The notes under the pieces: generated by a model
What the model saw: only the letters and a program-made list of their open reading frames with translations
What the model was told of the DNA's origin: nothing
The model's database searches: none
Assembly: GCA_013215655.1 (NCBI GenBank)
Contig: JABSOX010000055.1
Location: 1 to 37,424, forward strand
Source: Colwellia sp.
Lineage (GTDB): Bacteria > Pseudomonadota > Gammaproteobacteria > Enterobacterales > Alteromonadaceae
Length of the DNA stretch: 37,424 bases
Direction: 5' to 3'
Position numbers and translations under genes: made by a program
Shown: positions 19,801 through 35,346 of the stretch, in pieces
Layout of the letters: each line of letters opens with the position of its first letter
Position numbering within the stretch: the first letter of the stretch is position 1

Positions 19801-20988
19801 ATGCAGAACAATAAGAACATCGTAACAGTTGAATGTCATGAATGTGGCCTTGCCGTTAATATGTTACCTCTGCATGAAAATCATAAAGCGCAATGTCCCC
19901 GTTGTGGTTATATTTTGATGGCTATTCATCGAAATGCTATAGAACGAATTTTGGCTTTTTCTTTAACAGCGTTGATTTTTTTACTCGGCTCTCTGCCATT
20001 TGAATTTTTATCATTTAAAGCGAACGGTCTGGAAAATAAATTTGATGTAGCGGCAAGTTTTAACATTTTGATTGATAACCATTATGAAGTGCTGGCGCTT
20101 CTTGAATTGATCACTATCTTTATTATTCCAACCGTGATTTTGCTCGCTTTGATCTATTTGTTAATCCCATTGAGGAAGGGGAATTATCCTCGAAAAGGAC
20201 ATCGGGTACTAAAGCTTATATTCACGCTTATGCCTTGGAGCATGGTTGAAATTTTTCTTATTGGCGCTTTGGTCAGCCTGATCAAAATCATTAGTATGGC
20301 CGATGTACATTTGGGTCCCTCGTTTTACGCCTTCACATTATTCTCTGTAGCGATGACCGCGGCTTTATTGCATCTTGATAAAAGCCATTTAACACAATTG
20401 CTTGATGACGCTAGTATTTCCTCATCTGAACCCGCACTTGCACCAGTAAAGAAGAAACGGCGCTCTGTAGCGGATAAACGTTTCAGCATTCAACAAACGT
20501 GGGCATTAATTATTACCTCAGTAGTTTTGTATATTCCAGCCAATGTATTACCAATTATGAATACCCGATTATTAGGGCAAGATGACCCAAGCACGATATT
20601 AGGTGGTGTCATATTACTATGGAATATGGGCTCTTATCCTATTGCTTTGGTGATTTTTGTTGCCAGTATTGTAGTGCCCGTTACTAAAATATTAGCACTT
20701 GCTTGGCTAAATTATAGTGTGCAAACGCAGCGCATAAATTTAACCATGGAGCGCATTAAACTTTACCGTATGGCTGAATTTGTTGGACGTTGGTCGATGG
20801 TGGATGTTTTTGTGGTGATCATTCTTGCTAGCTTGATCCAACTGGGAAATGCTATGAGCATCTACCCTGGTGCGGCAACCATTGCTTTTTCAGGTGTAGT
20901 TGTTGTAACTATGCTCGCGGCGATGAGCTTTGATTCTCATTTAATTTGGAAACTATCGAAATCTTATGACAATAAAACAACAAGTTGA
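19801..20988 (+). CDS. pqiA: PqiA, membrane component of the PqiABC lipid-transport system
   Basis: 395 residues, with two PqiA domains of membrane helices (about 47-200 and 225-385). The N-terminal zinc ribbon is intact (C12, C15 and C32, C35). In E. coli PqiA a second zinc ribbon (CSCC ... CPRC) precedes the second half; here it is replaced by a basic, cysteine-free linker (PVKKKRRSVADKRF, about 216-230). The second half is otherwise well conserved (NVLPIMNTRLLGQDDPSTILGGVILLW, EFVGRWSMVDVFVV). It should form the inner-membrane part that hands lipids to the MCE tunnel of PqiB. AGGAG lies just before the ATG. Its end overlaps pqiB by 23 bp, so the two are co-translated. Confidence 0.95.
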   Translation: MQNNKNIVTVECHECGLAVNMLPLHENHKAQCPRCGYILMAIHRNAIERILAFSLTALIFLLGSLPFEFLSFKANGLENKFDVAASFNILIDNHYEVLALLELITIFIIPTVILLALIYLLIPLRKGNYPRKGHRVLKLIFTLMPWSMVEIFLIGALVSLIKIISMADVHLGPSFYAFTLFSVAMTAALLHLDKSHLTQLLDDASISSSEPALAPVKKKRRSVADKRFSIQQTWALIITSVVLYIPANVLPIMNTRLLGQDDPSTILGGVILLWNMGSYPIALVIFVASIVVPVTKILALAWLNYSVQTQRINLTMERIKLYRMAEFVGRWSMVDVFVVIILASLIQLGNAMSIYPGAATIAFSGVVVVTMLAAMSFDSHLIWKLSKSYDNKTTS

Positions 20989-22639
20989 GCCTGTAGATGC
21001 AGATGCAGATATTCAACCAATGAAATCAATATCATCAATTTGGTTTGTGCCTGTTATCGCCGTTTTAATTGGCATGTGGATGGTTTATTACCAGTGGAGT
21101 AGTCAAGGGCCTTTGATCACCATTGCATTTAGTACTGCTGAAGGTATGCAATCGGGTAAAACTAAGATCAAATCTCGAAACGTAGATATTGGCGAAGTCA
21201 CTAACATCACTTTAAATAAAGATTCTAATGGAGTATTGATCACCGCAAGAATATCAAAATCTGCTGAGCATTTACTTGTTGATGATAGTGATTTTTGGGT
21301 GGTATCCCCGCAAATTACCCATGCGGGTATTTCGGGATTGAGTACTTTGATATCCGGTGTATATATCGAAATTTCACCGGGCACATCGGAACAAGAAAAA
21401 ACTGATTTTATTGCCTTGAATGATCCGCCGGTGACACCTGTAGGTACGCCGGGTATTCACATTACACTCAACAGCAACGATCAATTTGCTTATGCAAAAG
21501 GAGATCCGATTATTTACAACGGTCTTACCGTTGGAAAATTTGAAGATATCTATTTCAATTTTGAGGAGCGTGTTGTTTATTATAATGCTTTTATAAAAGC
21601 GCCTTATCATCAGCTAGTGACCAGTAATACGAAATTTTGGGATGTCAGTGGTTTACGTATTGACTTAAATGCTGATGGTTTGTCAGTTCATACTGGTAAT
21701 GTGCAAACGATGTTAACTAATGGTGTGACTTTTGGCATACCCAAAGATATGGAAGTGGGAGAACAAATTACCGAGCGGGCTTATTTCGATATTTATCCCA
21801 ATTACGAAGCTGCAGACGATGAGCGTTATACACAATCCGTTAAATTTGTGGTACTGGTCAGTGATACCATTCGAGGATTAAAAGTAGGCGCGCCAGTGGA
21901 GTATCGCGGAGTACATATTGGTCAAGTCATCTCAACTAACATGTTAGTTAAAAATGCACCTACTAAGATAATGAAAGAGGAAATTAAGATACCTGTATTG
22001 ATTGGTATGCAGCCAGGTCGTGTTGGCTTGCCTGATGATGCTTTTGGTCTTGCACGTATGGAAGAGCAAAACAGACTTTGGGTTAAACAAGGTTTAAAAG
22101 CAATGCTGCGTACCGGTAACCTGTTAACGGGTAGTCTATTTATTGACTTACAACATTATAATGACCAACCGATTGGTGAGGTCGATAGGTTTGCAGGTTT
22201 TCCTGTGATCCCAACTACAACCAACGAATTTTCTCAAATTGCTGAAAAGGCAGGTAAATTTGTGGATTCACTCAATAATTTACCTTTGAATAACCTTACC
22301 GATAATGCCAATGATTTAATGAGTGAAATAACGCTAACAGCAAAAGAGCTACGCGGCGTTAGCCAAAATTTAGAAAAATTGTTGGTTAGCGCTAATAACC
22401 AAAGGTTGGCTGAGCAACTTAAGCAGAGCTTGCAAGGCATAACTAACCTCACTAAAGATCTGTCATCGGGCTCTAGAGGTTATGAAGATTTGCGTAAAAC
22501 TCTCGGTTCAGTAAACAATGTAATGCAAGAACTTAAACCATTACTTAACCAATTAAAACATCAACCTAATGGACTTATCTTTAACTCGGGACAAAGTGAA
22601 ATACTTGAACCGAAAAAGCATTCAGGAGCAAATAATTGA
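20966..22639 (+). CDS. pqiB: PqiB, MCE-domain lipid-transport tunnel
   Basis: 557 residues, close to E. coli PqiB (546). One N-terminal membrane helix (about 25-44, IWFVPVIAVLIGMWMVYY) is followed by three MCE domains (about 48-145, 160-260 and 285-400), each with a central G-x-V-x-G-x-V-type strand (RNVDIGEVTNI, NGLTVGKFEDI, RGVHIGQVIST). The C-terminal part (about 425-540) is a long amphipathic helix (SEITLTAKELRGVSQNLEKLL) that forms the needle-like tunnel to the outer membrane. Conserved MCE hairpin LLTGSLFIDLQH is present at about 392-403. It should carry phospholipids between membranes. Its last bases overlap the TTG start of pqiC. Confidence 0.96.
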   Translation: MTIKQQVEPVDADADIQPMKSISSIWFVPVIAVLIGMWMVYYQWSSQGPLITIAFSTAEGMQSGKTKIKSRNVDIGEVTNITLNKDSNGVLITARISKSAEHLLVDDSDFWVVSPQITHAGISGLSTLISGVYIEISPGTSEQEKTDFIALNDPPVTPVGTPGIHITLNSNDQFAYAKGDPIIYNGLTVGKFEDIYFNFEERVVYYNAFIKAPYHQLVTSNTKFWDVSGLRIDLNADGLSVHTGNVQTMLTNGVTFGIPKDMEVGEQITERAYFDIYPNYEAADDERYTQSVKFVVLVSDTIRGLKVGAPVEYRGVHIGQVISTNMLVKNAPTKIMKEEIKIPVLIGMQPGRVGLPDDAFGLARMEEQNRLWVKQGLKAMLRTGNLLTGSLFIDLQHYNDQPIGEVDRFAGFPVIPTTTNEFSQIAEKAGKFVDSLNNLPLNNLTDNANDLMSEITLTAKELRGVSQNLEKLLVSANNQRLAEQLKQSLQGITNLTKDLSSGSRGYEDLRKTLGSVNNVMQELKPLLNQLKHQPNGLIFNSGQSEILEPKKHSGANN

Positions 22640-23229
22640 AATTATTAACCGGCTATTTTGTTGCAATATTATGTTTACTGGTAGGCTGTAGTTCAGCGCC
22701 TTTGTCAAAAACGAGTTATTATTTACTGAATAATCAAAAGGCTGGGCTCACAGCTAACGACGTTTCCGGTGACTCGTCAATGCCTAAGAAAGTGATGGTG
22801 TTGTCGGTAAGAGACTTACCTGAGTACCTTATTCAGCCTCATTTGGTCATGCAAATGGTTGATCATCAATTAAACTATGCACATTTTCATATGTGGGCAG
22901 AACCACTACAACTCGGTTTGAAAAAAGCATTACTTACTGAGTTAAATAGCAATAATACCGAGACTTATTTTATTGCTGAAAATAGAGATAATAGAGAGGA
23001 CAATTTAGCAACCGTGGTTGTCAATATCGATTATTTCCACGCAAGTAGTGATTCACTGGTGACGTTATCCGGGCAGTATTGGTTATCAAAATCTAATGAA
23101 AAGCAATATTCTCAGGTGCAACCCTTCTATTTTGAACAACAACTTGAACACGATGGTTATCCACACTCTGTTGCGAAAATGAGAGCATTAGTCTCACAAC
23201 TTGCCATAAAAATAATGAAGGGAATTTAG
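22636..23229 (+). CDS. pqiC: PqiC, outer-membrane lipoprotein of the Pqi system
   Basis: 197 residues with lipobox LVGC (C18), the DUF330/YmbA family. The start is a rare TTG that overlaps the pqiB stop as TTGA; AGGAG seven bases ahead supports it, and it gives the lipoprotein signal at once. Conserved stretches include KTSYYLLN at the mature N-terminus, VRDLPEYLIQPHLVMQM (family motif for the first strand pair), and HMWAEPLQLGLKKALL. PqiC binds the tip of PqiB and anchors it to the outer membrane. Third and last gene of the operon; translation is probably coupled to pqiB. Confidence 0.94.
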   Translation: MKLLTGYFVAILCLLVGCSSAPLSKTSYYLLNNQKAGLTANDVSGDSSMPKKVMVLSVRDLPEYLIQPHLVMQMVDHQLNYAHFHMWAEPLQLGLKKALLTELNSNNTETYFIAENRDNREDNLATVVVNIDYFHASSDSLVTLSGQYWLSKSNEKQYSQVQPFYFEQQLEHDGYPHSVAKMRALVSQLAIKIMKGI

Positions 23230-23308: not shown

Positions 23309-23374
23309 TAATACCATTTCGTCTAAATATTTTCGCAAGCAAGAGTGGGCAAATATTTAGATGAATTTGTATAA
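23309..23374. repeat. long imperfect palindrome, REP/MITE-like
   Basis: Two arms of about 28 bases: 23309-23336 and 23347-23374. The core TTCGTCTAAATATTT (23318-23332) pairs with AAATATTTAGATGAA (23351-23365) with one wobble, and outer TAATAC pairs with GTATAA with one mismatch. It lies between convergent pqiC and the exporter gene and overlaps the exporter's stop codon, so it may work as a two-way terminator. Its shape, flanked by TAATACC-like ends, resembles small dispersed palindromes I recall from Colwellia-type genomes; the recall is from memory. Confidence 0.55.
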
Positions 23375-24100
23375 CATGAATATCGCCATTAGGGCGAGAA
23401 ATGCGGCAAAATATTTTTTGATTTTTTGTTGTGGTAGTTTTTGCGAAAAATGTTGACCGATAAAACTACCAACAATACCGATGGCCGTTATGATGGCAAT
23501 AGTGGACCAATCTAAAACTTGGTTATTCTCAGATAGAATGGCTTGATATTTAATAAATCCAGATGTCGAATTTATTGAGATCACCACCAAACTAGTAAAA
23601 ATTGCGTGACTCATGGTAATGCCAGCTAATAAAACCAAAGCAGGCACAATAAGAAAACCACCACCAACACCTACAAATCCTGTCAGCAGGCCAACGCAAA
23701 TTCCTTGCATAGCAGTTAATAGTAAATTCAATTTTTTTGGTGATCGTACAGGGAAAGGTTGAAACATTCGCCATGCGGCGATGAGCATGACGATTGCTAG
23801 TACCAATACTTGTGTGGATCCTGATACATAGCTACCGGCCCAAGCTCCTGCATAGGCACTGATCATACTCGGTATACCAAAATAGGTTACTAGCGGCCAA
23901 TGTATCTGTTTTTGCTGTAGCCCTTTTAAAGCCGATGTTGCACTGATTAATCCTACAATAACCAATGCACTTGCGATGGCCATTTTTTCAGAATAGCCCA
24001 AGCCATAAATGAGTACAGGCACTGTTAATATCGCACCGCCTGATCCTAATATGCCTAAGCTCAGACCAATCAAACATGCACCAATTAATACAATTAACAT
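23357..24100 (-). CDS. TauE/SafE family anion (sulfite/organosulfur) exporter
   Basis: 247 residues with about eight membrane helices in two similar halves. Each half opens with the family's glycine-rich motif: SLGILGSGGAILTVPVLI (about 14-31) and LLTGFVGVGGGFLIVPALVLL (about 138-158). TauE/SafE proteins export sulfite, sulfoacetate or related small anions; homologues accompany persulfide-oxidation genes such as the staphylococcal cst cluster. The gene lies 90 bases downstream of the cysteine desulfurase-persulfide dioxygenase-rhodanese gene, on the same strand, so the two are probably one transcript. Given that neighbour, sulfite or thiosulfate is the likely cargo; the sequence itself does not fix it. 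Its stop codon lies within the palindrome at 23309-23374. Confidence 0.88.
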   Translation of the reverse strand: MLIVLIGACLIGLSLGILGSGGAILTVPVLIYGLGYSEKMAIASALVIVGLISATSALKGLQQKQIHWPLVTYFGIPSMISAYAGAWAGSYVSGSTQVLVLAIVMLIAAWRMFQPFPVRSPKKLNLLLTAMQGICVGLLTGFVGVGGGFLIVPALVLLAGITMSHAIFTSLVVISINSTSGFIKYQAILSENNQVLDWSTIAIITAIGIVGSFIGQHFSQKLPQQKIKKYFAAFLALMAIFMLYKFI

Positions 24101-24190
24101 CTTCAGAACTCTTCGTTAGAGCAATAATTGCTTGCTAGTGTTTAATGGAACTATCTTCACAGTTAGCTCTTTGCTCAAAGCAGAGACGAC

Positions 24191-26488
24191 CTAATATTGA
24201 TGTAATGCATAGCCACCTTTTAAATGCCCAACTTGTTCAAACCCTAAACGTGATAGAGCCTGCGCAGCCAGATGAGAACGACTACCACTGCGGCAAACCA
24301 GTACCAATTTCTCTTGTTTGTTTTGTTGATGTTCCTGTACAAATTGTACTAAACGAGTCAAGGGCACATTAGTTGCGAAATTTTCATCGTGTTGTAAGGT
24401 GTATTCATGGGGCTCACGAATATCAATCAATCTAATTGTCTCGGGCTGTTTCATCGCCTCGGCTAAACTGGCACTATCATATTCACGTACCGTTGTTTTA
24501 TGACAATTACCGATCAAAGCACCACACATAATTTCACTACCCGACTCATCGATAATATGCTTATCCATGGTTGCTTTTTGACTTGAAAAGTCCCCGACGC
24601 TAATTTTGTTCGCCATGACTTGGGCAAGTAGTGAGTTACGTGATGTTTCGGTGGCAATTGATGTGGTAAATTCATTATTATAATCATGACTAGGACAAAT
24701 TAAACTCTCAGTGCCGATAAGCGCCTCTAATAATTGTAAACTTGTATGCATTGCCTTTGCACTACTGGTTGAGAAATTTGTACGGCCAAGGCTATCCATT
24801 AAAATTAAGTCACCACAAAACGCATAGTGAACAAGCAATTGCTCAGTTTCAGCCTTGATCGGGTCGCACAGTAACAGACTGATACTGTCATTGGTATGAC
24901 CTGGTGTAGCCACTTTAATCAACCACTTATCACCGAGAACAATGTACTGATAAGGTTTGCCTTCAATCGTTGTTGTTAGTGCATTCGCTGGCCAGCCAAG
25001 TGAGTCACTCTGTTGTTGGGCGAGGAATTCTACTGCAATACTGCCTCGACAAGACTCATGATCTGCATGACCATGAGTATCGATAACGGCAATTAATTTA
25101 AGTCGCTGACAGGCTAATAAGGTTTGTAAGCGGTCTGTTAATTCTGGTAAGGGATCAATGAATAATGCTGTTTTAGTCTTTTTATCGACATATAACCAGC
25201 TACAGCTACCACCTACTTTAAATTGTATTAAACCTTCAAGTTCAGTTTTATCTGCTATGGGATTAGTGTCTAACATTAAACAATTTTGTTCTAATGCTTG
25301 TGCAGCCAGACCTATTCTTTTACAGGTTTCGTCAATTTGTGGTTGTGTCATCGCAGGACCAAATGACATTCTAATTGCCGATTCACTTTGCCATGCAGGA
25401 AGTCCCATTGCGTCTAATACAAAACTACGGGTGACCTTAGAACTACAAGCAGAGCCTGAGCTGACACGAACATTTGCGGCGTCGAATAAATCCATGATTT
25501 CTTTTGAACTAAATCCTGGTATAGCAAAATTAATGGTGGTGGGTACTGAGTTTTCAAAACAATGATTAAGAACAATATCAGGAAATACTTTTCTTAAAGA
25601 TGTCACTATTTGTTGGCGAAATAAATGCAGAGTGTTTACTGGAGTAAAGGTATATTCACTTTCGTTAGTAAGCATCTTAAAGATTACATTTAATGCCGCT
25701 AAACCCGGTAAGTTTTCGGTGCCTGAGCGTAAACCACCTTCTTGTCCACCGCCAGCGATAAAAGCTGTAAATGGAGCGTTTTCTCTAACATACATAAAAC
25801 CAATGCCTTTAGGAGCATAAAGTTTGTGTCCGCTAAAGGGGGCGTAATCAATGCTTGTCTGCGCTAGGCTCAAATCAGTTTTACCTAATGCTTGCACACA
25901 ATCGACCATCCACCCAATGTCGGCATTATTAGCTCGAATGGTTTTATCTAATCGCTTGATGTCTTGGTAAACACCTGTTTCGTTGTTAACTGCCATAGTA
26001 CAGATCATCAAGGCATTGGGTACTTCTCTGGCGATAAACTCTAAATCAAGTTGACCTTTTTCATTTACTGGAATCGCTTTTAGCTCTGCGTTTATTTCAA
26101 GAACTTCATTCCAATGTTTGAGTGATTCGGGTACGGCTTTATGCTCGGTTGCACCATATAAAAGACAATATTTTTTATTTTTATCGAGTGTTTTTTTTAC
26201 GTGATGCAAAGCTGACAGAATGGCTGTTTGAATACCTTCTGTAGCGCCACTGGTGAATATAATTCCACCATTTTCTGCGCCAACAATGAGTTTTGCTCTT
26301 TGCCGTGTTTGGTCCACGATTTGTTTAGCTTGCAGTCCAGTAATATGACTACTGCTAGGATTTCCAAAGAGAGTTTCCATCGTCGATAAAGCTGCCGCTG
26401 CCGCTTGCGGTAAAACTTGCGTGGTAGCATTTTCATCCAAATAAATTAGACTAAGTGGTTGTTGCGTTTTTTTAGACAAATTGCTCAT
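24191..26488 (-). CDS. three-domain sulfur enzyme: cysteine desulfurase + persulfide dioxygenase + rhodanese
   Basis: 765 residues. Domain 1 (about 12-403) is a NifS/IscS-type cysteine desulfurase: PLP lysine K222 in FSGHKLYAPKG, H116 (ATEHKAV), and catalytic C348 in SSGSACSSKV, a long-loop class I site. Domain 2 (about 417-630) is a metallo-beta-lactamase fold of the ETHE1 persulfide dioxygenase type: H472, H474, D476, H477 (THGHADH), H531 (PGHT), D560 (CGD), LGRTNF and PSHDY (H601). The ETHE1 iron ligands match H472, H531 and D560. Domain 3 (about 660-765) is a rhodanese with C732 in VCRSGSRS. Together they would take sulfur from cysteine as persulfide, oxidise it to sulfite and move sulfur on or form thiosulfate. 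Dioxygenase-rhodanese fusions are known (CstB); the added desulfurase is unusual. No frameshift or internal stop. An anion exporter gene follows. Cytoplasmic, no signal peptide. Confidence 0.92.
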   Translation of the reverse strand: MSNLSKKTQQPLSLIYLDENATTQVLPQAAAAALSTMETLFGNPSSSHITGLQAKQIVDQTRQRAKLIVGAENGGIIFTSGATEGIQTAILSALHHVKKTLDKNKKYCLLYGATEHKAVPESLKHWNEVLEINAELKAIPVNEKGQLDLEFIAREVPNALMICTMAVNNETGVYQDIKRLDKTIRANNADIGWMVDCVQALGKTDLSLAQTSIDYAPFSGHKLYAPKGIGFMYVRENAPFTAFIAGGGQEGGLRSGTENLPGLAALNVIFKMLTNESEYTFTPVNTLHLFRQQIVTSLRKVFPDIVLNHCFENSVPTTINFAIPGFSSKEIMDLFDAANVRVSSGSACSSKVTRSFVLDAMGLPAWQSESAIRMSFGPAMTQPQIDETCKRIGLAAQALEQNCLMLDTNPIADKTELEGLIQFKVGGSCSWLYVDKKTKTALFIDPLPELTDRLQTLLACQRLKLIAVIDTHGHADHESCRGSIAVEFLAQQQSDSLGWPANALTTTIEGKPYQYIVLGDKWLIKVATPGHTNDSISLLLCDPIKAETEQLLVHYAFCGDLILMDSLGRTNFSTSSAKAMHTSLQLLEALIGTESLICPSHDYNNEFTTSIATETSRNSLLAQVMANKISVGDFSSQKATMDKHIIDESGSEIMCGALIGNCHKTTVREYDSASLAEAMKQPETIRLIDIREPHEYTLQHDENFATNVPLTRLVQFVQEHQQNKQEKLVLVCRSGSRSHLAAQALSRLGFEQVGHLKGGYALHQY

Positions 26489-26696: not shown

Positions 26697-26927
26697 CTAG
26701 TCGGCTTGATAGCCCTTTTTTCCTGATGTGATCTTACTAAGAACATCAGCATTGTCACTAATAGTGGTTTGTTGTAACGAGTAACCGCTACTTTTTTGAG
26801 CATAATCAATGCGCACAGAGAGTTCATCAATAGCGGTGATGAAACCTGTACTAAACGTTATGATAAACAAAAGACCAACAGGAAAACCAAGCCAACGGTG
26901 AGCTGTGGTCAAGAATTTTTTTATCAT
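26697..26927 (-). pseudogene. truncated PepSY-associated membrane protein, remnant
   Basis: 76 residues. The N-terminus (LTTAHRWLGFPVGLLFIITFSTGFITAIDEL) is the first membrane helix and signature of PepSY-associated membrane proteins, which assist iron-siderophore uptake or reduction and normally run to about 370-520 residues. After about 70 residues it stops at TAG, and the next 200 bases hold no continuation in any frame I can follow. It lies 14 bases after the TPR gene of the TonB2-type operon, where a full-length PepSY gene would make sense. I read it as the remains of such a gene, perhaps after a deletion. A functional single-helix protein cannot be excluded. Confidence 0.6.
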
Positions 26928-26941
26928 GACATCACCACTGG

Positions 26942-28333
26942 CTAAGTTTGATTACGTACTAAGTTTTCTAACGACTGGATGTTGGCTATGACATCACTAC
27001 GACGAGGATTAAACTGAATAACTTGGCGAAGTAAATGTAAAGCTTGTTGGTATTTCTTCTTGTCGATTGCTACTTGTGCTTGTCCCAATAGTGCACGTTC
27101 TTGATATCCTGATAAGGCTTGTGCTCTTACGTAATAAATTAATGCGCTTTCATTTCGTGTTTGTTGCCATAATAAAGTTGCCAAACTAAGTAGAGCTTCG
27201 CCATGACTTGGATCGTTGTTAAGGGCTTGTTTAAGTCGTTTTTTGGCGAGTCCAAACTTGTTTTCTGCGATTGCCAATTGTGCATGGTAAACATCAAACT
27301 TCGCTTGCATATTCCCCGCTAATTCAGCTCGGTTATCATCAACTGCACTGAGCAGAATTTTTAATTGCTGCCAATCCTGTTGATAAACTAACCAAGCACT
27401 GATTTGATCAACCGCGGCAATGCTGTTTTCCATTTTATTGTCTAAGAATAATGACATATTTTCTTTTAATATTTTTACTGCACGACGAGGACTACCTGCT
27501 TGAATATGAAGCTGTACTGTTGTGGTGAGGTTTTCTATGCCTTTTTCACCCAGTTGCAATGCCATTTCTAAACTACTGATTGCTTGTATTAAGCGATTTT
27601 GTTTTAACGCCAATTGCCCTCGTTGTAGCCATAAAAGATTGTTGTTCATATTATCGGCTAACATTTCCTCTAATAGTGCTTGCGCCTGATCAAAAGCATG
27701 GCTATTAAGTAGCGCGTATAACAATCCTTGCCGCCATTGTTCGCTTTCGGGTTCAAGAAATAACGCATATTGATAACCTGCAATCGCACTTGCCGCTTGA
27801 CCTAATTGCAAATTAACATAAGCAAGTTGGCCAAAAACCTGCGCGTCACCAACGCCTAATTCAATCGTACGTTTTAGGTGATATTGTGCCTTTTTATAGA
27901 ATTTTTTAACCATGTACACCATGCTCATACTACGATGAGCCAGTGCCAAGTTAGGCACTAGGTTAAGTGCTTGTTGTAAACTTTGTTCGGCTTTGTCGTA
28001 TTGTTTTAACAGTAGTTGCACTTGACCTCGTAGTTGGCACAAAGCAGCACTGTCATTTGTTAAAGAGCCATTTGATAATGAACGCTGGGAAAATGCTTTG
28101 ATCACTGCTTGGTAATTTTGTGCAGCAAGTAAAGGTTGAATTTTCTTTGAAAAGCTACGTTCATGGGGCGCTATTTTTACCTCTTTTTGCATCAAAGGTT
28201 GGTTATTCAAAAGAAACTCCCACTGCGGTGCTGCAAGTTTAATGTTTAATTCGCTATAACATGAAAATGCCACGCTAGATAAACACGCCATCAATAACAA
28301 GGGGTTGGTAAGTAAAGTAAAAGTTCTAGACAT
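26942..28333 (-). CDS. TPR-repeat protein of the TonB2-type operon
   Basis: 463 residues. An N-terminal signal or anchor (TNPLLLMACLSSVAFSC, about 9-25) includes FSC, which might be a weak lipobox but has a poor sequence. From about residue 95 nearly all of the protein is tetratricopeptide repeats (for example YDKAEQSLQQALNLVPNLALAHRSM and YQQALHLLRQVIQFNPRRSDV). It should sit in the periplasm and present a protein-binding surface. Its gene lies 25 bases after tonB and is the last intact gene of the operon. TPR genes at this place are common in marine gammaproteobacterial TonB2-type clusters. A role in organising TonB or the receptor is likely, but not shown by sequence. Confidence 0.83.
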   Translation of the reverse strand: MSRTFTLLTNPLLLMACLSSVAFSCYSELNIKLAAPQWEFLLNNQPLMQKEVKIAPHERSFSKKIQPLLAAQNYQAVIKAFSQRSLSNGSLTNDSAALCQLRGQVQLLLKQYDKAEQSLQQALNLVPNLALAHRSMSMVYMVKKFYKKAQYHLKRTIELGVGDAQVFGQLAYVNLQLGQAASAIAGYQYALFLEPESEQWRQGLLYALLNSHAFDQAQALLEEMLADNMNNNLLWLQRGQLALKQNRLIQAISSLEMALQLGEKGIENLTTTVQLHIQAGSPRRAVKILKENMSLFLDNKMENSIAAVDQISAWLVYQQDWQQLKILLSAVDDNRAELAGNMQAKFDVYHAQLAIAENKFGLAKKRLKQALNNDPSHGEALLSLATLLWQQTRNESALIYYVRAQALSGYQERALLGQAQVAIDKKKYQQALHLLRQVIQFNPRRSDVIANIQSLENLVRNQT

Positions 28334-28358
28334 TATTATTCTCTTTTATGAATCTCTT

Positions 28359-28997
28359 TTATGATTTTATTTCTAGTGGCCAGACAAAGCGGGCTCTGAC
28401 AGGAGAGTTGTCTTTTTTAGGAGCGGTGAAGCGACTGACGCGAATTAAACGCTGAATTTCACTATTCAATTCTCGATATGGGTTTTCAACTAGTTTGATT
28501 AAACTCAGGCGTCCCTGTTCGTCAATCATCACCTCCAATTTGACCAAAACACTTTTTATTCCTTGCCGACGCAGACTTTTTGGAAATTTGATTGCTAATG
28601 GTGTTAATAAGGTGGGTAATCCGTCTAATTCATTGAGTTCAAATGCGTCCCAGTTTATCTCCAATGTCTGCCATTTTGATTCGGTCATAACAATAGGCGG
28701 CATATCTGGCTTGGTTATCGTTATCTTTTGCGCGATATCTATCATTTGCATAACAGGTCCGGCTCCTTGAACCTGTATTGATATGGGGGTATCAATCACC
28801 GTTTTTTGTACTGCTGGTGGCGGTGAAGGAGGTGGTGTCGTAATTAAAGTGACTTCGCGAATAATGACTTTAGGTACGGGCGCCTGCTTGATGCTGTGTC
28901 CTAGCCAAAAAAATAGCAATGCAAATGCAAGTATCGTCAGACTGGCTATGCTGGCGAGAAGATTTTTTTGCAATGGAGTGATAAATTTAGCCTTCAA
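28359..28997 (-). CDS. tonB: TonB energy transducer, TonB2-like
   Basis: 212 residues. One N-terminal membrane helix (about 14-32, LASIASLTILAFALLFFWLG) anchors it in the inner membrane. A short proline-rich spacer (TTPPPSPPPAVQK, about 53-65) crosses part of the periplasm. The C-terminal domain (about 135-212) has the TonB fold (LRRQGIKSVLVKLEVMIDEQG, then RVSRFTAPKK) that contacts outer-membrane receptors. The spacer is much shorter than in E. coli TonB, as in Vibrio TonB2. It lies directly after exbD in the operon DUF3450-ttpC-exbB-exbD-tonB, and a siderophore receptor is transcribed divergently, its probable partner. Confidence 0.87.
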   Translation of the reverse strand: MKAKFITPLQKNLLASIASLTILAFALLFFWLGHSIKQAPVPKVIIREVTLITTPPPSPPPAVQKTVIDTPISIQVQGAGPVMQMIDIAQKITITKPDMPPIVMTESKWQTLEINWDAFELNELDGLPTLLTPLAIKFPKSLRRQGIKSVLVKLEVMIDEQGRLSLIKLVENPYRELNSEIQRLIRVSRFTAPKKDNSPVRARFVWPLEIKS

Positions 28998-29007
28998 AAT
29001 GTATCCT

Positions 29008-29415
29008 TTAAGGAGTTAATGCCGCTAGGTTTACGGTTTGTGCGCCGGCAAGTTTGGCTTCGTCAATCACCGCTAGCAATAAATGTGTTGGTACATTTTT
29101 ATCTGCTTGGATAACCACTGAACGTGATTGGCGGCGCAACAACTGCTCAACGGTACCTCGGATCCCCGCAATACCAATATGACCACCATCATAAAATACT
29201 TCACCACGATCAGTTATCGCCAGCAATATGGCTGTTTTCTCTAGTTTTTGCGCAGTTAACGCCTGTGGTTTATCAACTTCGACACCTGTTTCTTTGACAA
29301 AAACAGTGGTAACAATAAAAAATATCAAGAGAATAAAAACGACATCCAACAGTGGTGACATATCAATAGCTGTGGTTTGTTCTTGCTCAAGGCGACGCTG
29401 TAATCTTGCTGGCAT
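29008..29415 (-). CDS. exbD: ExbD/TolR biopolymer transport protein
   Basis: 135 residues. A single N-terminal membrane helix (about 21-43) follows IDMSPLLD; D24 in that motif corresponds to the essential E. coli ExbD Asp25 that carries protons. The C-terminal domain (about 60-135) is periplasmic, with VVIQADKNVPTHLLLAVIDEAKLAGA, the typical ExbD ending. With ExbB it forms the proton-driven motor that energises TonB. It starts three bases after exbB and tonB follows after 10 bases. Confidence 0.93.
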   Translation of the reverse strand: MPARLQRRLEQEQTTAIDMSPLLDVVFILLIFFIVTTVFVKETGVEVDKPQALTAQKLEKTAILLAITDRGEVFYDGGHIGIAGIRGTVEQLLRRQSRSVVIQADKNVPTHLLLAVIDEAKLAGAQTVNLAALTP

Positions 29416-29418
29416 AAG

Positions 29419-29847
29419 TTAAGACTCTAAACAGGATGGATTAGCGTTAATTGGTTGAATAATACGCTGATGTTTTATTTTCGAATGTACCCAAGATTGC
29501 AGTAACCAACCGGGAATAGCGCACAATAAACCTAACTGAGTGGTTAATAATGCTTTAGCTATACCTGAGCTAACTAATTCATTACTGGCTCCAGTGTTTG
29601 CAATCCCTGCAAAACACTCTAGTAAACCGGCAATTGTACCTAATAGCCCTAGAAGGGGTAGTGCACCAATGAGTATGCCAGTAAAGGCAAAGTTATTGCT
29701 GGTAACTGAATCACTTAATGATTCACCTTTCTGTGGTGCAATACTTTCAAAACACGCCAGATATTGACACCATAATTGTTGGTAACATACTAAAGCGAGT
29801 AATAAGATTGCCCAGCAAATCACACTATTTACTATTTGTTCTATCAT
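29419..29847 (-). CDS. exbB: ExbB-type proton channel protein (short)
   Basis: 142 residues, MotA/TolQ/ExbB family, with three membrane helices: about 6-23, 52-74 (FTGILIGALPLLGLLGTIAGL) and about 95-118 (KALLTTQLGLLCAIPGWLL). The LLGLLGT and TTQLGL motifs line the proton path. It is shorter than usual TonB2 ExbB proteins (about 175 residues), losing part of the cytoplasmic loop and C-terminus. Its start overlaps the end of the TtpC-like gene by 4 bp (ATGA-type), so the two are co-translated. The neighbouring TtpC-like protein has a second, larger channel domain, as in the Vibrio TonB2 system. Confidence 0.9.
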   Translation of the reverse strand: MIEQIVNSVICWAILLLALVCYQQLWCQYLACFESIAPQKGESLSDSVTSNNFAFTGILIGALPLLGLLGTIAGLLECFAGIANTGASNELVSSGIAKALLTTQLGLLCAIPGWLLQSWVHSKIKHQRIIQPINANPSCLES

Positions 29848-31223
29848 GCAACAATTCCTTGTACTGCGCTTTCCCTAACATCAGGCCTAACATCAGGCAA
29901 CTCGCTAATAATATAAGGTTCATCAAGTCGTTCATTTGACTTACTTAATAAAATGGCAAAATTTTCTAACTCGATATAATAGGCTTTAGCTTTACGTGAA
30001 AGTACCGCATTAAGAAGGAGTGCAGGAATGGCTACTACCAAGCCTAATTCCGTGGTGACTAAGGCTTGTGAAATACCACCAGAAACTACTTCAGCATCAC
30101 CAGAACCAAATAGTGTCATCATTCGAAAAGTTTCAATCATTCCGCTTACCGTACCTAACAGGCCTAACAAAGGAGCTACTGCCGCGGTAATGGCAATAGC
30201 ACTAATCCTCCGTTCTAATTGGTGTTTGTTTTTCTGTAGCTGCATGAATAATTCATCATCACGCTGAGTTGTTGACGATGCATTGTTTGCTATGGCGAGT
30301 AAGGATTTTTGCATACCTTTGATTTGATGGATGACTGCGCTATCTTCCAATTTTTTGCTTAAAGCTTTATCTACCATTGCTGGGCTCAACTGAACAAAAC
30401 GTGGTAATCGCCACAATTGAATAACTTTAAATAGTGCAATAGTAAGTGCAAACAGGGCAAATAGTAGTATCGGAATAACCCATAGACCGCCTTTAATTAT
30501 ATGCTCAATCAGGCTTTCTTGATGCTGAGAACGCACTAATGCACGATGCAGTGTTGGATCAAAAATAATATTACCTAGATCAGAATGTCTTAACTTTTCG
30601 ATGCCATTACTGTTGGGTAAATAGCCTTGATGCTGCCAAATATTATGTTCACCGAGACTTGCAAAACCGGCCTGTTGGCTTGTTTCATCCCAATACCAAG
30701 TTACCGGTCCTATGGTTAATAGGGGACTCTGGCTAATTTCCCCATTTGGCATAACAACATTGTCTTGTTGCCAGCCAGGGGAAAATTGCTTGGTGAGTTG
30801 CTCGCCTTTTATTAATACACGGGCAAATTGCGCAACAACTCCCGCAGTTGTAGGAAAATTAAGAATTGGTAAGTGTTGCTGCAAAAATCGATGTAAAAGG
30901 TTTTTTTGAAAAACGTGTTGTTGTTGCCAAGTTGATAATCGTTGCTCAAGTTTAGTTAAACTCAATGTTCCTTCATCTGATAGCCGTCTGACTACCGCTG
31001 TTTTTTTACGTAACTCGATGACTTCTTGTTCTAATTTAGCGAGTTTTCTGGCGATATTTTGGCGTTCGTTACTTATCTTATTTTCTACCACCGAGAGTGC
31101 TTTGTGCGCTAAGTTGATTTTATTGAGTAATTGTTGCTCGGCCCCATTTTCTGGTTGAGCTATGGCAGTTAACGGGTTGCAGATAGCGGCAATTAACAAA
31201 AGAATGGATATTTTGTAGTACAT
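29844..31223 (-). CDS. TtpC-like MotA/TolQ/ExbB proton channel protein
   Basis: 459 residues. A signal peptide (about 1-22) is followed by a coiled coil (about 35-125) and a periplasmic globular part with many Trp residues (VTWYWDETSQQAGFASLGEHNIWQH type, about 165-205). The C-terminal third (about 230-440) is the channel domain with three membrane helices and the motifs APLLGLLGTVSGMIETF and TTELGLVVAIPALLL. This layout is that of TtpC, a fourth essential component of the TonB2 system in Vibrio. Its gene shares one base with the preceding DUF3450 gene (TAATG) and overlaps exbB by 4 bp. It should supply force to the TonB here together with ExbB-ExbD. Confidence 0.87.
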   Translation of the reverse strand: MYYKISILLLIAAICNPLTAIAQPENGAEQQLLNKINLAHKALSVVENKISNERQNIARKLAKLEQEVIELRKKTAVVRRLSDEGTLSLTKLEQRLSTWQQQHVFQKNLLHRFLQQHLPILNFPTTAGVVAQFARVLIKGEQLTKQFSPGWQQDNVVMPNGEISQSPLLTIGPVTWYWDETSQQAGFASLGEHNIWQHQGYLPNSNGIEKLRHSDLGNIIFDPTLHRALVRSQHQESLIEHIIKGGLWVIPILLFALFALTIALFKVIQLWRLPRFVQLSPAMVDKALSKKLEDSAVIHQIKGMQKSLLAIANNASSTTQRDDELFMQLQKNKHQLERRISAIAITAAVAPLLGLLGTVSGMIETFRMMTLFGSGDAEVVSGGISQALVTTELGLVVAIPALLLNAVLSRKAKAYYIELENFAILLSKSNERLDEPYIISELPDVRPDVRESAVQGIVA

Positions 31224-32059
31224 TATGATTTGCCTTCATTTTTCTGGATAGTTACCGACTTTGCCTCGGAGGACGAATTTTTTACTAATTTGATCGGTAG
31301 CTCGGTAAAATCGGCTTGTTGTTTCTTTTCGAATATTGCGATAGCACGTTTTATTTCCGTTGCATTAACGTCATTATCAAAATGCCATATCCAGCCATTT
31401 TCATCAGCCTGTCCCCAACCACAATATTCACCGTTTGCACTGGTAAACCAAGCAATGCCGGTACCCAAATATAACTGTTTTACTAGGACGTCTTTTCCTT
31501 GAGGTGAAGTTAATGGTGTTTCATGCAGAGAAATTCTTTGTTCAAATTCTGCTAATTTAGCAAGTTTTGCTAAAGCTACTTGTAGTTGCAATGAGAGGTC
31601 AGGATTTACTGCCAATACCTGTTGCTCTTTGTGCCAGGACTGCATCAATGGCGGTGGTAATAGTTGTTCAATATAGACCAGTTGATTGGTCAATAAAGCG
31701 AGTTGTTGTTCTAATTCAAATTGTTGTTGTTCAAGTCGTGTTTGTTGTTCGAGTAGTGTCTTACGTTTACCATCGACATTTTCATTTTTCTGACCATCAA
31801 TATCAATTAATAACGTTAATTGTTTTTTTTCAGCATTTAACAGCACTAACCTTTGTGTTAATAACGGCTCTTGAATGTGCCAATCTTTTTGCAACTGCGA
31901 ATTTTGTTTCTCTATATCTAACCATTGCCGCGTTAACTGATCGACTTGCGCAACTTCTAGCGCATAAATTGGCACAACGACACCACTGACTACAAATAAC
32001 AATAACCACTTCATTGCCACGTACGGGATTTGAATGGAGCTAAATAATGCCATTTTCAA
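31223..32059 (-). CDS. DUF3450 periplasmic coiled-coil protein of the TonB2-type operon
   Basis: 278 residues, DUF3450 family. A signal peptide sits at about 16-33 (MKWLLLFVVSGVVVPIYA). Residues about 40-130 are a long coiled coil rich in Gln, Leu and Glu (LEQQQFELEQQLALLTNQL). The C-terminal domain has the family motif LYLGTGIAWFTSANGEYCGWG. The first codon of the frame is TTG, eight bases after GAGG; an ATG at 32053 and the ATG at residue 16 are alternatives, the last giving a clean signal peptide but without a clear ribosome site. It is the first gene of the operon. DUF3450 genes regularly lead TonB2-type clusters, and the coiled coil is thought to work with the TtpC-like protein. It is divergent from the siderophore receptor gene. 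Confidence 0.85.
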   Translation of the reverse strand: MKMALFSSIQIPYVAMKWLLLFVVSGVVVPIYALEVAQVDQLTRQWLDIEKQNSQLQKDWHIQEPLLTQRLVLLNAEKKQLTLLIDIDGQKNENVDGKRKTLLEQQTRLEQQQFELEQQLALLTNQLVYIEQLLPPPLMQSWHKEQQVLAVNPDLSLQLQVALAKLAKLAEFEQRISLHETPLTSPQGKDVLVKQLYLGTGIAWFTSANGEYCGWGQADENGWIWHFDNDVNATEIKRAIAIFEKKQQADFTELPIKLVKNSSSEAKSVTIQKNEGKS

Positions 32060-32168
32060 AAGAATTACCTCATTAATTGAAATGTAAAAGACAGCATAGA
32101 AATCTATTTTGGGTATGCCAATTACGCACTTTGTTTATAAACGAGTGCTTATCTGAGTCAACCTTAAC

Positions 32169-32187
32169 AAGAATGATTATCGTTTGC
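32169..32187. promoter_or_regulatory. Fur-box-like operator between divergent iron genes
   Basis: The 19 bases centred on AATGATTATC match the Fur consensus palindrome at 13 of 19 positions by my count. It lies in the 251-base spacer between the DUF3450 gene and the receptor gene, where one Fur dimer could repress both units when iron is plentiful. Confidence 0.6.
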
Positions 32188-32310
32188 AATTGGTTTGAGT
32201 GGTTGATATGATGCGCCGCGTTAAAAGTCGCGTAAACATAAAATGACTTATCAGCTACTTATCAACGACGCAAAACAACAAAACGACAATTAAAATGGGG
32301 ATTACAGTAA

Positions 32311-34548
32311 ATGACTCACTACGCACAAAAACTACCGTTGACTGGATTTAAATTCAGTGCGCTAACGCTGGTTATTGCCACTACTTTTCAAGTTCATACA
32401 TCGGCAGCAGCAGAAATAAAAGAGCTTGCAATCACAACTGTTTCGGCGCAAACAGAAGATAGTTATAAAGTTGAATTATCTAGTTCACCAAAATATACAC
32501 AACCATTATTAGACACCGCTAAAACGATTTCAGTGATTTCAAAATCGGTAATGAAAGATCGCAATGTTGATAGTCTACGAGATGCCTTACGCAATGTTCC
32601 AGGTATTACCCTTGAAGCAGGGGAAGGTGGCACACCAACCGGTGATAGCATGTCTATTCGAGGATTTAATGCGCGTAGTAATATCATGATCGATGGCGTG
32701 AGAGATGTTGCTGGATATTCACGTGATACATTTAATATTGAGTCGGTAGAAGTAGCCAAGGGACCAGGTTCTGCCGTATATGGTCGTGGCTCGGCTGGTG
32801 GAACGATAAATATGGTAACTAAAACGGCCAAATTAGATGAGTTTAACGATGTAAGTTTACGTATCGGCAGTGAAAGTGATTATCGTGTGCAAGTAGATGT
32901 AAATGTAGCTGTCGGTGAAAGTTCAGCACTGCGTATAAATTTACTTAATGATGATGGTGGGGTGGCTGGTCGTGATGAGGTAGAGAATTCAAAAACAGCC
33001 ATTGCCGCTTCGTTTGTTAGTGGTGTCGCTACGGATTCTCGTTTAACGATTAACGCGGATTATCAAAAACAAGAGAACATTCCCGATTATGGATTACCAT
33101 GGATCCCTAACTATTCTACTCGTAGTGATAGAACACTTCACACCGATATTGCTCAATATGAAGGACAAGAGCCTCCTGTTAAGTACAGTAACTTTTATGG
33201 CAATGTGAATCGTGATTTTGAAGATATCAAAGCAATGTCATTGACAGTGAAATATGAAAAAGACTTGTCGGAAAATACATTGCTTCGTGTTTTGGCACGC
33301 ACAGGCTCTATTGAAAGACAATCTATCGTGAATGCCCCTCGTTTTGAATATGAAAAAATTGACGATGTGCGGGTTTATGGTCAAGGTGCGGTAATTGGTT
33401 TAGGACATGACAAAACGCGAGATACTGAAGATTCTCTGTCGGTACTGCAACTTGATTTAATTGGCAATTACAATTTCAATGGTATTGATCACGATGTTGT
33501 TGTTGGTTTTGAATATGCAAAAGAGAAGTTTGAACGTTGGAATTTTGAAGCCATTATTGAAGATAACTTGCAAGATATTGAAGTTGATCTTTATAACCCG
33601 GATTCTTCACTTGCCTTTACAGGCCAATATAAACGCGCCGATAAAAGTAACGAAGCAACGGGTGATACGACGGCATTTTATATTTTTGATACGATGACTT
33701 TAAGCCCTAACTGGCAGATATCTGCCGGTATTCGTTATGATATTTTTGAGACTGAATATTTTTACGATTTAGATGGTGATGATCCTACACTCGTTTTAAA
33801 AGCTAAAGAAAATGAAGTCAGTTGGAATTTTGGTGTGGTTTATAAACCTGCCGATAATGGCAGTATTTATTTTGGCGCTGGCAATTCATTTAGTCCATCG
33901 GCGGAAGATTTGACTGCGTCATCACGAGGCAATAATGCAGAACTGGACCCAGAAGAAACACTTAGCTATGAATTTGGTACTAAATGGAATCTTTTAGATC
34001 ATCGTATTTTGGCAAGTGCCGCTATATTTCGCACAGAAAAGAATAACGCCCGTTCAGATGACCCGTTTGCAGAAAATAGCAGAGACGAGATTTTAAAAGG
34101 TGAGCAACGAGTTGACGGTATCGAGCTAAGTGCTGTAGGTCAAATTAACGATCTGTTATCTATTACTGCAGCTTATACCTATCAAGATAGTGAAGTGGTT
34201 AAAGCAACTGGCGCAGACGCCGTTCAAAATGGCGTTGAATTGAGAAAAACACCAAAACATTCATTTTCTGTTTGGGGCAAATATGATATTTCTGAAAAGC
34301 TTACTGTAGGCTTGGGTAGTCAATATATGGGTGAACGTTATAACAGCTCTGATCCCGGTGGTCGTGAACAAGCGGATGACTACTTAATTTTTGACATGAT
34401 GGTATCGTATCAATTCTCAGATCAGTTAAGTGTACAAATGAATGGGTCAAACTTAACAGATGAAGATTATGCAGACCAAATTGGCGGTGGCCACTTTGTT
34501 CCAGGTGAAGGACGTTACTTTTCAATAAGTGCAAATTACTCCTTTTAA
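32311..34548 (+). CDS. TonB-dependent catecholate siderophore receptor, Fiu/PiuA type
   Basis: 745 residues. A signal peptide (about 1-33, ending TSAAA) is followed by a short N-terminal segment with a possible TonB box (LAITTVSAQ), a plug domain (about 55-180; TAKTISVISKSVMKDRN, SIRGFNARSNIMIDGVRD, GPGSAVYGRGSAGGTINMVTK) and a 22-strand barrel to the C-terminus, which ends in aromatic YFSISANYSF. The plug motifs are close to Fiu/PiuA-type receptors for iron-catecholate compounds, and piuC follows, the usual partner of that type. It should take up Fe(III)-siderophores, energised by the divergent TonB2-type operon. A Fur-box-like site sits upstream. The exact ligand cannot be read from the sequence. 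Confidence 0.93.
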   Translation: MTHYAQKLPLTGFKFSALTLVIATTFQVHTSAAAEIKELAITTVSAQTEDSYKVELSSSPKYTQPLLDTAKTISVISKSVMKDRNVDSLRDALRNVPGITLEAGEGGTPTGDSMSIRGFNARSNIMIDGVRDVAGYSRDTFNIESVEVAKGPGSAVYGRGSAGGTINMVTKTAKLDEFNDVSLRIGSESDYRVQVDVNVAVGESSALRINLLNDDGGVAGRDEVENSKTAIAASFVSGVATDSRLTINADYQKQENIPDYGLPWIPNYSTRSDRTLHTDIAQYEGQEPPVKYSNFYGNVNRDFEDIKAMSLTVKYEKDLSENTLLRVLARTGSIERQSIVNAPRFEYEKIDDVRVYGQGAVIGLGHDKTRDTEDSLSVLQLDLIGNYNFNGIDHDVVVGFEYAKEKFERWNFEAIIEDNLQDIEVDLYNPDSSLAFTGQYKRADKSNEATGDTTAFYIFDTMTLSPNWQISAGIRYDIFETEYFYDLDGDDPTLVLKAKENEVSWNFGVVYKPADNGSIYFGAGNSFSPSAEDLTASSRGNNAELDPEETLSYEFGTKWNLLDHRILASAAIFRTEKNNARSDDPFAENSRDEILKGEQRVDGIELSAVGQINDLLSITAAYTYQDSEVVKATGADAVQNGVELRKTPKHSFSVWGKYDISEKLTVGLGSQYMGERYNSSDPGGREQADDYLIFDMMVSYQFSDQLSVQMNGSNLTDEDYADQIGGGHFVPGEGRYFSISANYSF

Positions 34549-34603
34549 TTTGAGTTAGCTGCGCTATGTAATATCAGTGGAATTAGCATAGTGTGTTTTT
34601 TAT

Positions 34604-34625
34604 CGGTCGGATTTAGTTCCGGCCG
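34604..34625 (+). terminator. GC hairpin between the receptor and piuC, possible attenuator
   Basis: CGGTCGGA, six-base loop, TCCGGCCG: eight pairs with one wobble, strikingly GC-rich here. The following run is AATTGATTTTT, so the T tract is delayed. It could partly end receptor transcripts and lower piuC expression. Confidence 0.45.
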
Positions 34626-34659
34626 AATTGATTTTTGATCGGTTTTTATCTGGAGTATA

Positions 34660-35346
34660 TTGGTTTTGTTATTAAAAATACCGAACGTATTAAATAAAGA
34701 ACAAGTACATCAAGTTAAACAAGTGATGTTAGCAGCCGATTGGACTGACGGTAATGTCACTGCTGGCTATCAAAGTTCTCAAGCGAAGAATAATTTACAA
34801 TTGCCTGAAAATTCACACGCTGCCATCGAACTTGGAGATTTGATATTAGCGACATTAGCCAAAAATAACATGTTTATGTCTGCTGCTTTACCTCTGAAAA
34901 TTTTTCCTCCACTATTTAATTGTTATCAAGGGGGCGGAAATTTTGGTGTACATGTGGACAATGCGATTCGTCAGGTGCCCGGAACCCCTGTAAAAGTACG
35001 CACTGATGTTTCTATGACATTATTTATTTCTGAACCCGATGAGTACGAAGGTGGTGAGTTAGTGATTGAAGAAACCTTTGGTTCGCAAAAAGTGAAACTA
35101 GCGGCAGGAGATATGATCCTTTACCCATCAACAAGTTTGCATCGGGTAACACCTGTTACGCGAGGTCGTCGACTAGCTTCCTTTTTCTGGTTGCAGAGCA
35201 TGATCAGTAGTGACGAAAAGCGCAGTTTATTATTTGATATGGACATGGCAATCCAATCGTTACGTAATAAAGTGGCTGACAGCCCTGAAATAATTCAATT
35301 AACCGGGGTTTACCATAATATGTTGCGTCAATGGGCGCAAACCTAA
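34660..35346 (+). CDS. piuC: Fe(II)/2-oxoglutarate-dependent PKHD-type hydroxylase, PiuC/YbiX
   Basis: 228 residues (226 from the second TTG), against 225 in E. coli YbiX, with which it aligns nearly end to end. The iron-binding residues are the H-x-D pair in FGVHVDNAIR and the later histidine in PSTSLHRVTP; the arginine in TRGRRLASFFW should bind 2-oxoglutarate. YEGGELVIEETFG is also typical. No ATG is available. TTG at 34666 matches the family's start (MLLKIPNV like MMYHIPGV) and has GGAG ten bases ahead; TTG at 34660 is only four bases away. PiuC genes usually follow Fiu/PiuA-type receptors, as here, and share their iron regulation. The exact hydroxylated substrate is not firmly established; modification of a siderophore or another iron-linked compound is likely. 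Confidence 0.93.
   Translation: MVLLLKIPNVLNKEQVHQVKQVMLAADWTDGNVTAGYQSSQAKNNLQLPENSHAAIELGDLILATLAKNNMFMSAALPLKIFPPLFNCYQGGGNFGVHVDNAIRQVPGTPVKVRTDVSMTLFISEPDEYEGGELVIEETFGSQKVKLAAGDMILYPSTSLHRVTPVTRGRRLASFFWLQSMISSDEKRSLLFDMDMAIQSLRNKVADSPEIIQLTGVYHNMLRQWAQT

Follow-up and report, generated by a model that had tools for sequence, protein, structure and literature searches.

The stretch analysed here, called the window throughout, is the whole of positions 1 to 37,424 (37,424 nucleotides, forward strand) of contig JABSOX010000055.1 from Colwellia sp., assembly GCA_013215655.1. Its minus strand encodes a single 765-residue protein in which a cysteine desulfurase, a persulfide dioxygenase (PDO) and a rhodanese are fused, followed by a TauE/SafE (TSUP) transporter. 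The locus comprises the following features:

24191..26488, minus strand: the desulfurase-PDO-rhodanese fusion, an uninterrupted open reading frame of 765 amino acids (aa), recognised by Pfam; homologues occur in PVC bacteria (here Planctomycetota and Verrucomicrobia) as well as in six families of the order.
25331..26446, minus strand: cysteine desulfurase domain of the NifS/IscS class, residues 15-386, with H116, D196, Q199, H221, K222 and C348.
25109..25282, minus strand: stretch that separates the desulfurase active site from the iron site and carries the extra conserved cysteines C403, C429 and C460, a candidate sulfur relay.
24509..25234, minus strand: ETHE1-type PDO domain, about residues 419-660, assigned from profile comparison with the PDB, fold and conservation, with iron ligands H472, H531 and D560 and also R569, N571, H601, Y603 and C655.
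24209..24469, minus strand: rhodanese domain (Pfam), residues 674-760, with catalytic C732 in CRSGSRS.
24101..24190, minus strand: 90-bp intergenic gap, scanned for terminators and promoters.
23357..24100, minus strand: TauE/SafE (TSUP) transporter, 247 aa, 90 bp downstream of the fusion (Pfam PF01925, E 7.7e-47, 160.4 bits against a cut-off of 32.6).

An earlier interpretation made from the letters alone, the sequence-only reading, had placed three domains in one frame, and that description holds. Pfam finds Aminotran_5 (residues 15-386, E 1.5e-54), Lactamase_B (427-477, E 9.3e-5; 22.9 bits, cut-off 22.7) and Rhodanese (674-760, E 1.6e-11) in that order in the one open reading frame, and K222, C348, H472, H531, D560, H601 and C732 all stand at the positions it had named. 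Conservation was scored on 109 distinct proteins, left after 11 duplicates were dropped from 120 collected ones including the window's; because six homologues lacking the iron triad were added on purpose, this set does not reflect natural frequencies. Since the domain order and the catalytic residues recur in most of these 109 proteins, and the full-length fusion in many genomes, it is neither a chance joining nor an assembly artefact. Across 20 disjoint pairs with whole-protein dS between 0.1 and 1.0, none of them from a triad-less lineage, the median ratio of nonsynonymous to synonymous substitution rates (dN/dS) is 0.057 for the desulfurase, 0.106 for the PDO and 0.061 for the rhodanese. 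Purifying selection acts on all three domains, with the PDO constrained about half as tightly.

The first domain is the most uniform. All 109 proteins have K222, H221, H116, D196, Q199 and C348, and together these residues supply what characterises group I (NifS/IscS-like) desulfurases: the lysine that binds pyridoxal phosphate (PLP), its neighbouring histidine, the Asp/Gln pair and a catalytic cysteine on an SSGSAC loop. The NCBIfam equivalog cut-offs are not reached (262.7 against 530.75 for NifS, 203 against 643.2 for IscS, TIGR02006); judged by residues and scores, the domain belongs to the NifS/IscS class but is neither equivalog. The only annotated homologue encountered bears the name 'aminotransferase class V-fold PLP-dependent enzyme'. 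When the predicted model of the whole protein was compared by fold, only desulfurases and selenocysteine lyases appeared among the matches listed, and residues 405-765 were therefore modelled separately. A selenocysteine lyase, or an enzyme for some other cysteine-like substrate, is a very improbable identity for this domain: NifS, IscS and Nfs1 match it equally well or better, and the sulfur-specific partner domains would make little sense with selenium.

The middle domain, with its marginal Lactamase_B score, needs more care. A profile of this region run against the PDB scores PDOs best (4ysb, 104 bits, E 9.1e-29), with the glyoxalase II GloB (6rz0) at 54 bits, and because PDOs of known structure come first the weak Pfam match can be taken as real. 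The model of residues 405-765 (mean pLDDT 89.2) has PDOs and PDO-rhodaneses at fold ranks 1-7 and its first glyoxalase II at rank 13. By both measures the domain is closer to PDOs than to glyoxalase II, and the latter identity is ruled out. H472 is kept in 102, H531 in 103 and D560 in 103 of the 109 proteins, and the full 2-His-1-Asp triad in 102, the window's protein among them. D476 (85/109) and H477 (80/109), the second-metal residues of the metallo-beta-lactamase (MBL) motif, are less conserved, as one would expect if the enzyme, like others of the ETHE1 type, binds a single iron. Of the further residues, R569 occurs in 98 proteins, H601 and Y603 in 103, and C655, followed by G656 as the essential PDO cysteine is followed by glycine, in 102; C655 presumably corresponds to C224 of the A. 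caldus PDO (AcPDO), a match that I draw from the Cys-Gly motif of human ETHE1.

The rhodanese domain has the CxxGxR active-site loop, as CRSGSRS at 732, and C732 is kept in 108 of 109 proteins, the exception (L063) running off the end of its contig. The extra cysteines that separate the first two active sites, C403 (107/109), C429 (106/109) and C460 (97/109), are also widely kept, and their placement and conservation make them candidate relay cysteines.

The fusion is scattered rather than confined to the window. Within the family, 49 of 147 genomes and 17 of 52 genera have a match at E <= 1e-80; 38 of the 49 align across all three domains, one stops near a contig end and ten align partly. Searches of the order and of the class, in which the best two candidates per genome were scored, gave matches in 43 of 394 genomes from six families and, in an even draw of the class, in one of 369, the window's own. 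Among relatives of a Planctomycetota metagenome-assembled genome (MAG) two of 146 genomes match, and among those of a Verrucomicrobiales MAG seven of 144, the starting genome being counted in each case. The best 80 of 568 relatives in a contig scan, which include Colwellia, Paraglaciecola, Glaciecola, Pseudoalteromonas, Shewanella, Thalassotalea, Ferrimonas, Psychrobium and two PVC MAGs, all span the three domains except L063. Contamination is an unlikely source of the Planctomycetota and Verrucomicrobia copies, which are nine distinct, diverging sequences on nine contigs and form one supported group. A standalone PDO or PDO-rhodanese was found in seven of the 147 family genomes at E <= 1e-45, a threshold beyond which more distant ones could exist, and it co-occurs with the fusion in only two, G000 and G136. 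The first of these encodes a standalone PDO-rhodanese of 367 aa (G000:C5:6389-7489, L004), and the related copy in the second has an internal TGA.

The transporter gene is, as had been claimed, the next one on the same strand, 90 bases downstream, and its 247-aa product matches PF01925. No terminator-like or promoter-like match lies inside the gap, in a scan that overall gave no more matches than shuffled sequence; the arrangement is consistent with co-transcription of the two genes. A TSUP gene adjoins the fusion at 16 of 90 loci, namely eight of nine PVC loci and eight of 81 others, the latter being a lower bound because some of the 81 stop at contig ends. The number expected within 1.1 kb of 90 fusions is 0.19, as estimated from 122 TSUP genes in 30 genomes of the window's family, applied to the PVC loci too and counting loci rather than independent events; the remaining flanks of the same loci hold two TSUP genes against 1.04 expected. 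A narrow profile, which detects 13 of 20 known family TSUPs, found the gene at 10 of 83 loci, always adjoining the fusion with gaps of 8-466 bp; of another seven PVC loci, six had it too. A wider profile (20/20 in leave-one-out) recovered the same 16 adjacent genes and two non-adjacent ones, 5.5 kb away at L083 and 4.7 kb away at L095, and seven of seven Pfam-checked proteins, out of the 15 adjacent TSUPs beyond the window, score above the cut-off. Eight loci outside the 90 (L120-L127) gave no TSUP match.

These neighbours are arranged in four ways: downstream on the same strand (the window, L042, L043), upstream and divergent (L051 and the P. piscicida group L009, L074, L085 and L092), upstream on the same strand at 25-30 bp (Planctomycetota L114 and L138) and downstream and convergent (six Verrucomicrobia loci). 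On trees whose deep nodes are weak and whose branches are long, adjacency requires at least six state changes, and a single clade of adjacent TSUPs is rejected (approximately unbiased test, p-AU 5e-59; 0.042 without the P. piscicida type) on a TSUP tree that leaves out eight of the 20 background family TSUPs. Because of these state changes, and because the adjacent TSUPs are not one clade, the association must have arisen more than once. The link is above chance and repeatedly formed, and it is not constant: the suggestion that an exporter always accompanies the fusion fails, with adjacency at eight of 81 loci outside the PVC bacteria. The fusion is also not peculiar to this genome, having relatives across families and phyla, 16 of 90 loci with a TSUP gene. 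By its family name, the transporter is a putative sulfur-anion exporter.

Regulatory genes next to the fusion are suggestive at two or three loci. In the Psychrobium and Psychrobiaceae MAGs with L054 and L061, a divergent Lrp-family gene lies 124-150 bp upstream of the fusion, and the two regulators share 45 and 49% identity with DecR of E. coli as against 37 and 35% with Lrp. DecR (YbaO) is described as a cysteine-activated regulator of yhaO (PMC7373191). At L138 another Lrp-type gene, 25% identical to DecR and not DecR-like, flanks the TSUP-fusion pair. No constant regulator or operon was seen around the fusion, its neighbours varying between genera. The window has an Lrp/AsnC gene of its own at 9542-10018 (plus strand). 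It lies 14 kb away from the fusion, diverges from pyruvate dehydrogenase E1/E2 genes and encodes a protein sharing 37% identity with E. coli Lrp and 33% with DecR.

What would such a protein do? Cysteine desulfurases convert cysteine to alanine and a cysteine persulfide, PDOs oxidise persulfide with O2 to sulfite, and rhodaneses form thiosulfate from persulfide and sulfite or run in reverse. I favour, with a probability of roughly 0.58, the reading that the fusion is a self-contained disposal enzyme for cysteine sulfur, in which cysteine would give alanine and a persulfide, the persulfide would be oxidised in cis to sulfite and/or thiosulfate, and in some lineages a TSUP protein would export the product. 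To judge from family and residues, the PLP domain would release alanine from L-cysteine and leave a persulfide on C348; this sulfane sulfur would reach the PDO iron site directly or through a thiol carrier and be oxidised to sulfite; and C732 would take up a second sulfane sulfur and hand it to sulfite, yielding thiosulfate. The net reaction would be 2 Cys + O2 + H2O -> 2 Ala + S2O3(2-) + 2 H+. The anion would leave through the neighbouring TSUP protein in the window and several other lineages, any export elsewhere being encoded at another locus. The likely purpose would be relief of excess cysteine or persulfide, together with use of cysteine to supply alanine, carbon and nitrogen. In favour of this reading count the retained catalytic residues, the alignment of the PDO-rhodanese half with BpPRF, the selection on all three domains, the recurrent TSUP neighbours, the DecR-type regulators, the scarcity of standalone PDOs and the precedents of the Pseudorhodoferax and Blh fusions described below. 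Of the one-protein route for cysteine-sulfur oxidation that the sequence-only reading had put forward, the architecture, the catalytic residues, the selection on all three domains and the above-chance TSUP link stand as observations, but a constant TSUP partner and a universal oxidation step do not; the chemistry, what it yields, which way the carrier works and the physiological role are inferred.

Several results weigh against this reading. The chief one is that iron ligands have been lost in at least seven of the 49 matching family genomes, from four genera, in which the desulfurase and rhodanese are retained. Ten family genomes gave partial matches, and in all six of those read (L120-L125) the PDO ligands are gone and K222/C348 and C732 remain; a full-length homologue from G107 (L030/L126) has lost H472, H531 and C655. 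At least three changes on the tree are needed to account for this, and as far as ligands tell, the oxidation step is not universal among relatives of the fusion. Second, every residue named by the sequence-only reading is present, but position 571, which matches D141 of AcPDO, is Asn in 74 of 109 proteins including the window's and Asp in 26. Its Arg partner (R139 in AcPDO) is kept in the window as R569. Third, going by motif spacing, a leucine (L620 in the window, present in 95 of 109 proteins) seems to stand in place of an arginine with which PDOs bind glutathione. Finally, no TSUP gene was found adjoining 73 of the 81 loci outside the PVC bacteria, some of which end at contig ends, and DecR-type neighbours are confined to the two loci named above.

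The Asn at 571 invites the view that the PDO is poor or altered in the window's clade, the protein then acting as a desulfurase-rhodanese whose iron/MBL module regulates or senses. An Ala mutant of the essential D141 in AcPDO retained 1.5% activity (PMC6060420), and the iron site has been lost in related lineages. I consider this quite improbable all the same: the window's protein keeps the three ligands, R569, H601, Y603 and C655, its domain has a low dN/dS, and all nine PVC proteins have Asp at 571 with the full iron triad.

The lost iron sites bear more directly on sulfur trafficking, in which a desulfurase-rhodanese relay would feed acceptors (protein persulfidation, cofactor or tRNA thiolation, glutathione persulfide) and the PDO would be a losable overflow valve. 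C348 and C732 outlast the iron site, and C403, C429 and C460 do so in four of the six partial homologues, triad-less proteins of 695-709 aa, being absent from the two of 604-613 aa. The lowest dN/dS values are those of the desulfurase and the rhodanese, and a natural desulfurase-rhodanese fusion from Pseudorhodoferax (CD-Rhd) transpersulfidates a model protein (PMC8931425). This makes trafficking a serious contender, yet an unlikely one, since the iron triad persists in 102 of 109 proteins with the PDO under purifying selection, an oxidised product better fits the recurrent TSUP neighbours, and no cofactor- or tRNA-thiolation gene recurs among the neighbours inspected, of which a minority of clusters were identified, with one TusA gene at L010.

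The flow of sulfur could also be turned around, with the rhodanese drawing sulfane sulfur from thiosulfate, the PDO making sulfite for assimilation, the TSUP protein importing and the desulfurase acting as an auxiliary source. The direction of TSUP transport is unreadable from sequence, and BpPRF, which among solved structures is the one most closely related to the PDO-rhodanese half, was reportedly proposed to serve sulfur assimilation. It would, however, leave the desulfurase, the best conserved part of the protein, pointless or futile, and the DecR-type neighbours at two loci point to cysteine excess; I regard it as improbable.

Returning to disposal of cysteine sulfur, a stricter form of that reading is conceivable but rather unlikely. 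Sulfane sulfur would stay on the protein, passing from C348 by way of C403, C429 and C460 to the iron site and C732, with no free sulfide and no glutathione, the latter bypassed because the glutathione-binding Arg of PDOs seems replaced by Leu or Phe. The protein might then take the cysteine of proteins to extracellular thiosulfate (or sulfite) in aerobic marine bacteria.

Each half of the fusion has known relatives. CstB of Staphylococcus has an additional rhodanese homology domain and no known desulfurase, whereas the fusion has a single Rhodanese stretch by Pfam; the solved entry 3r2u I take to be CstB. The PDO-rhodanese half aligns with BpPRF (5ve3-5ve5) over both domains (5ve3, E 1.8e-36; profile 23-355, chain 33-361), but BpPRF has no desulfurase, and the N-terminal domain at residues 15-386 gives the fusion a different architecture. 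Superposed over both domains, the model and BpPRF differ by a root-mean-square deviation of 15.5 over 297 residues, which suggests either that the domains are placed differently or that the model is unsure of their placement. The Pseudorhodoferax CD-Rhd, like the fusion, has a desulfurase and a rhodanese in one chain; it is a very active desulfurase in which sulfur is proposed to pass from C334 to C466, a hand-over that supports transfer from desulfurase to rhodanese in the fusion (PMC8931425). It has no dioxygenase between the two domains, and the word 'dioxygenase' is absent from the text of the paper that was searched (PMC8931425).

Blh, from the bigR operon of Xylella and Agrobacterium, is likewise a sulfurtransferase-PDO fusion that couples the two activities in vitro and has a TauE-related transporter gene in its operon, but it has DUF442 instead of a rhodanese, the reverse domain order, sulfide as input, BigR as regulator and no desulfurase (PMC5823870). 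The CyuPA/DecR system of E. coli degrades excess cysteine, and a DecR-type regulator stands at two fusion loci as well; CyuA (YhaM) yields sulfide, pyruvate and ammonium, unlike the products proposed here (PMC7373191). CyuA had no match in the 147 family genomes at E 1e-50, in a search without a positive control, and with zero CyuA and no such control, mutual exclusion of CyuA and the fusion is uninformative.

No report of the three-part fusion turned up in the full-text literature searched, which did not extend to subscription articles such as those describing CstB and BpPRF. Desulfurase-rhodanese and PDO-rhodanese fusions are already published, and the protein is a new combination of known modules, conserved across families and phyla. 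Joining the two known types would physically couple the source, the oxidation and the hand-over of sulfane sulfur. If the activity is as predicted, the common marine genera Colwellia, Pseudoalteromonas, Shewanella, Thalassotalea and Paraglaciecola would be able to convert cysteine directly to sulfite or thiosulfate without passing through sulfide, and the fusion might contribute thiosulfate to oxic seawater. Lineages that lost the iron site alone, set beside those that keep it, offer a natural test of substrate channelling.

Other genes beside the fusion differ from genus to genus, and where a group is described one member was searched. Twelve Shewanella loci encode, upstream of the fusion, a small protein that is DSP-PTPase-like and weakly matches BLH_phosphatase, and 24 encode a YhcH/YjgK/YiaL protein there (examples of such upstream genes are L076:7177-7713 and L089:6620-7081). 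At three Colwellia loci, for example L048:6745-7608, the fusion and a gene for an SBF/BASS-type transporter are divergent. One fusion on a Pseudoalteromonas replicon, sharing 46% identity with the window's, has a TusA-family sulfurtransferase gene (L010:4469-4687) two genes upstream.

In the window itself, a short minus-strand frame at 26697-26945, between the fusion and a TPR gene, stops early and is probably a gene remnant; its translation would presumably fit the N-terminal portion of a membrane protein of the PepSY type. From 26942 to 35346 follow the TPR gene, a TonB-type protein, further minus-strand genes, a TonB-dependent receptor and a PKHD-type hydroxylase, which together resemble a siderophore or iron uptake set. 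On the plus strand at 19801-23229, PqiA, an MlaD-repeat protein and an ABC_trans_aux lipoprotein make up a pqiABC-type operon that converges on the TauE gene, and at 35502-37166 on the minus strand Pfam recognises the catalytic domain of a Tle1-like phospholipase effector of the type VI secretion system.

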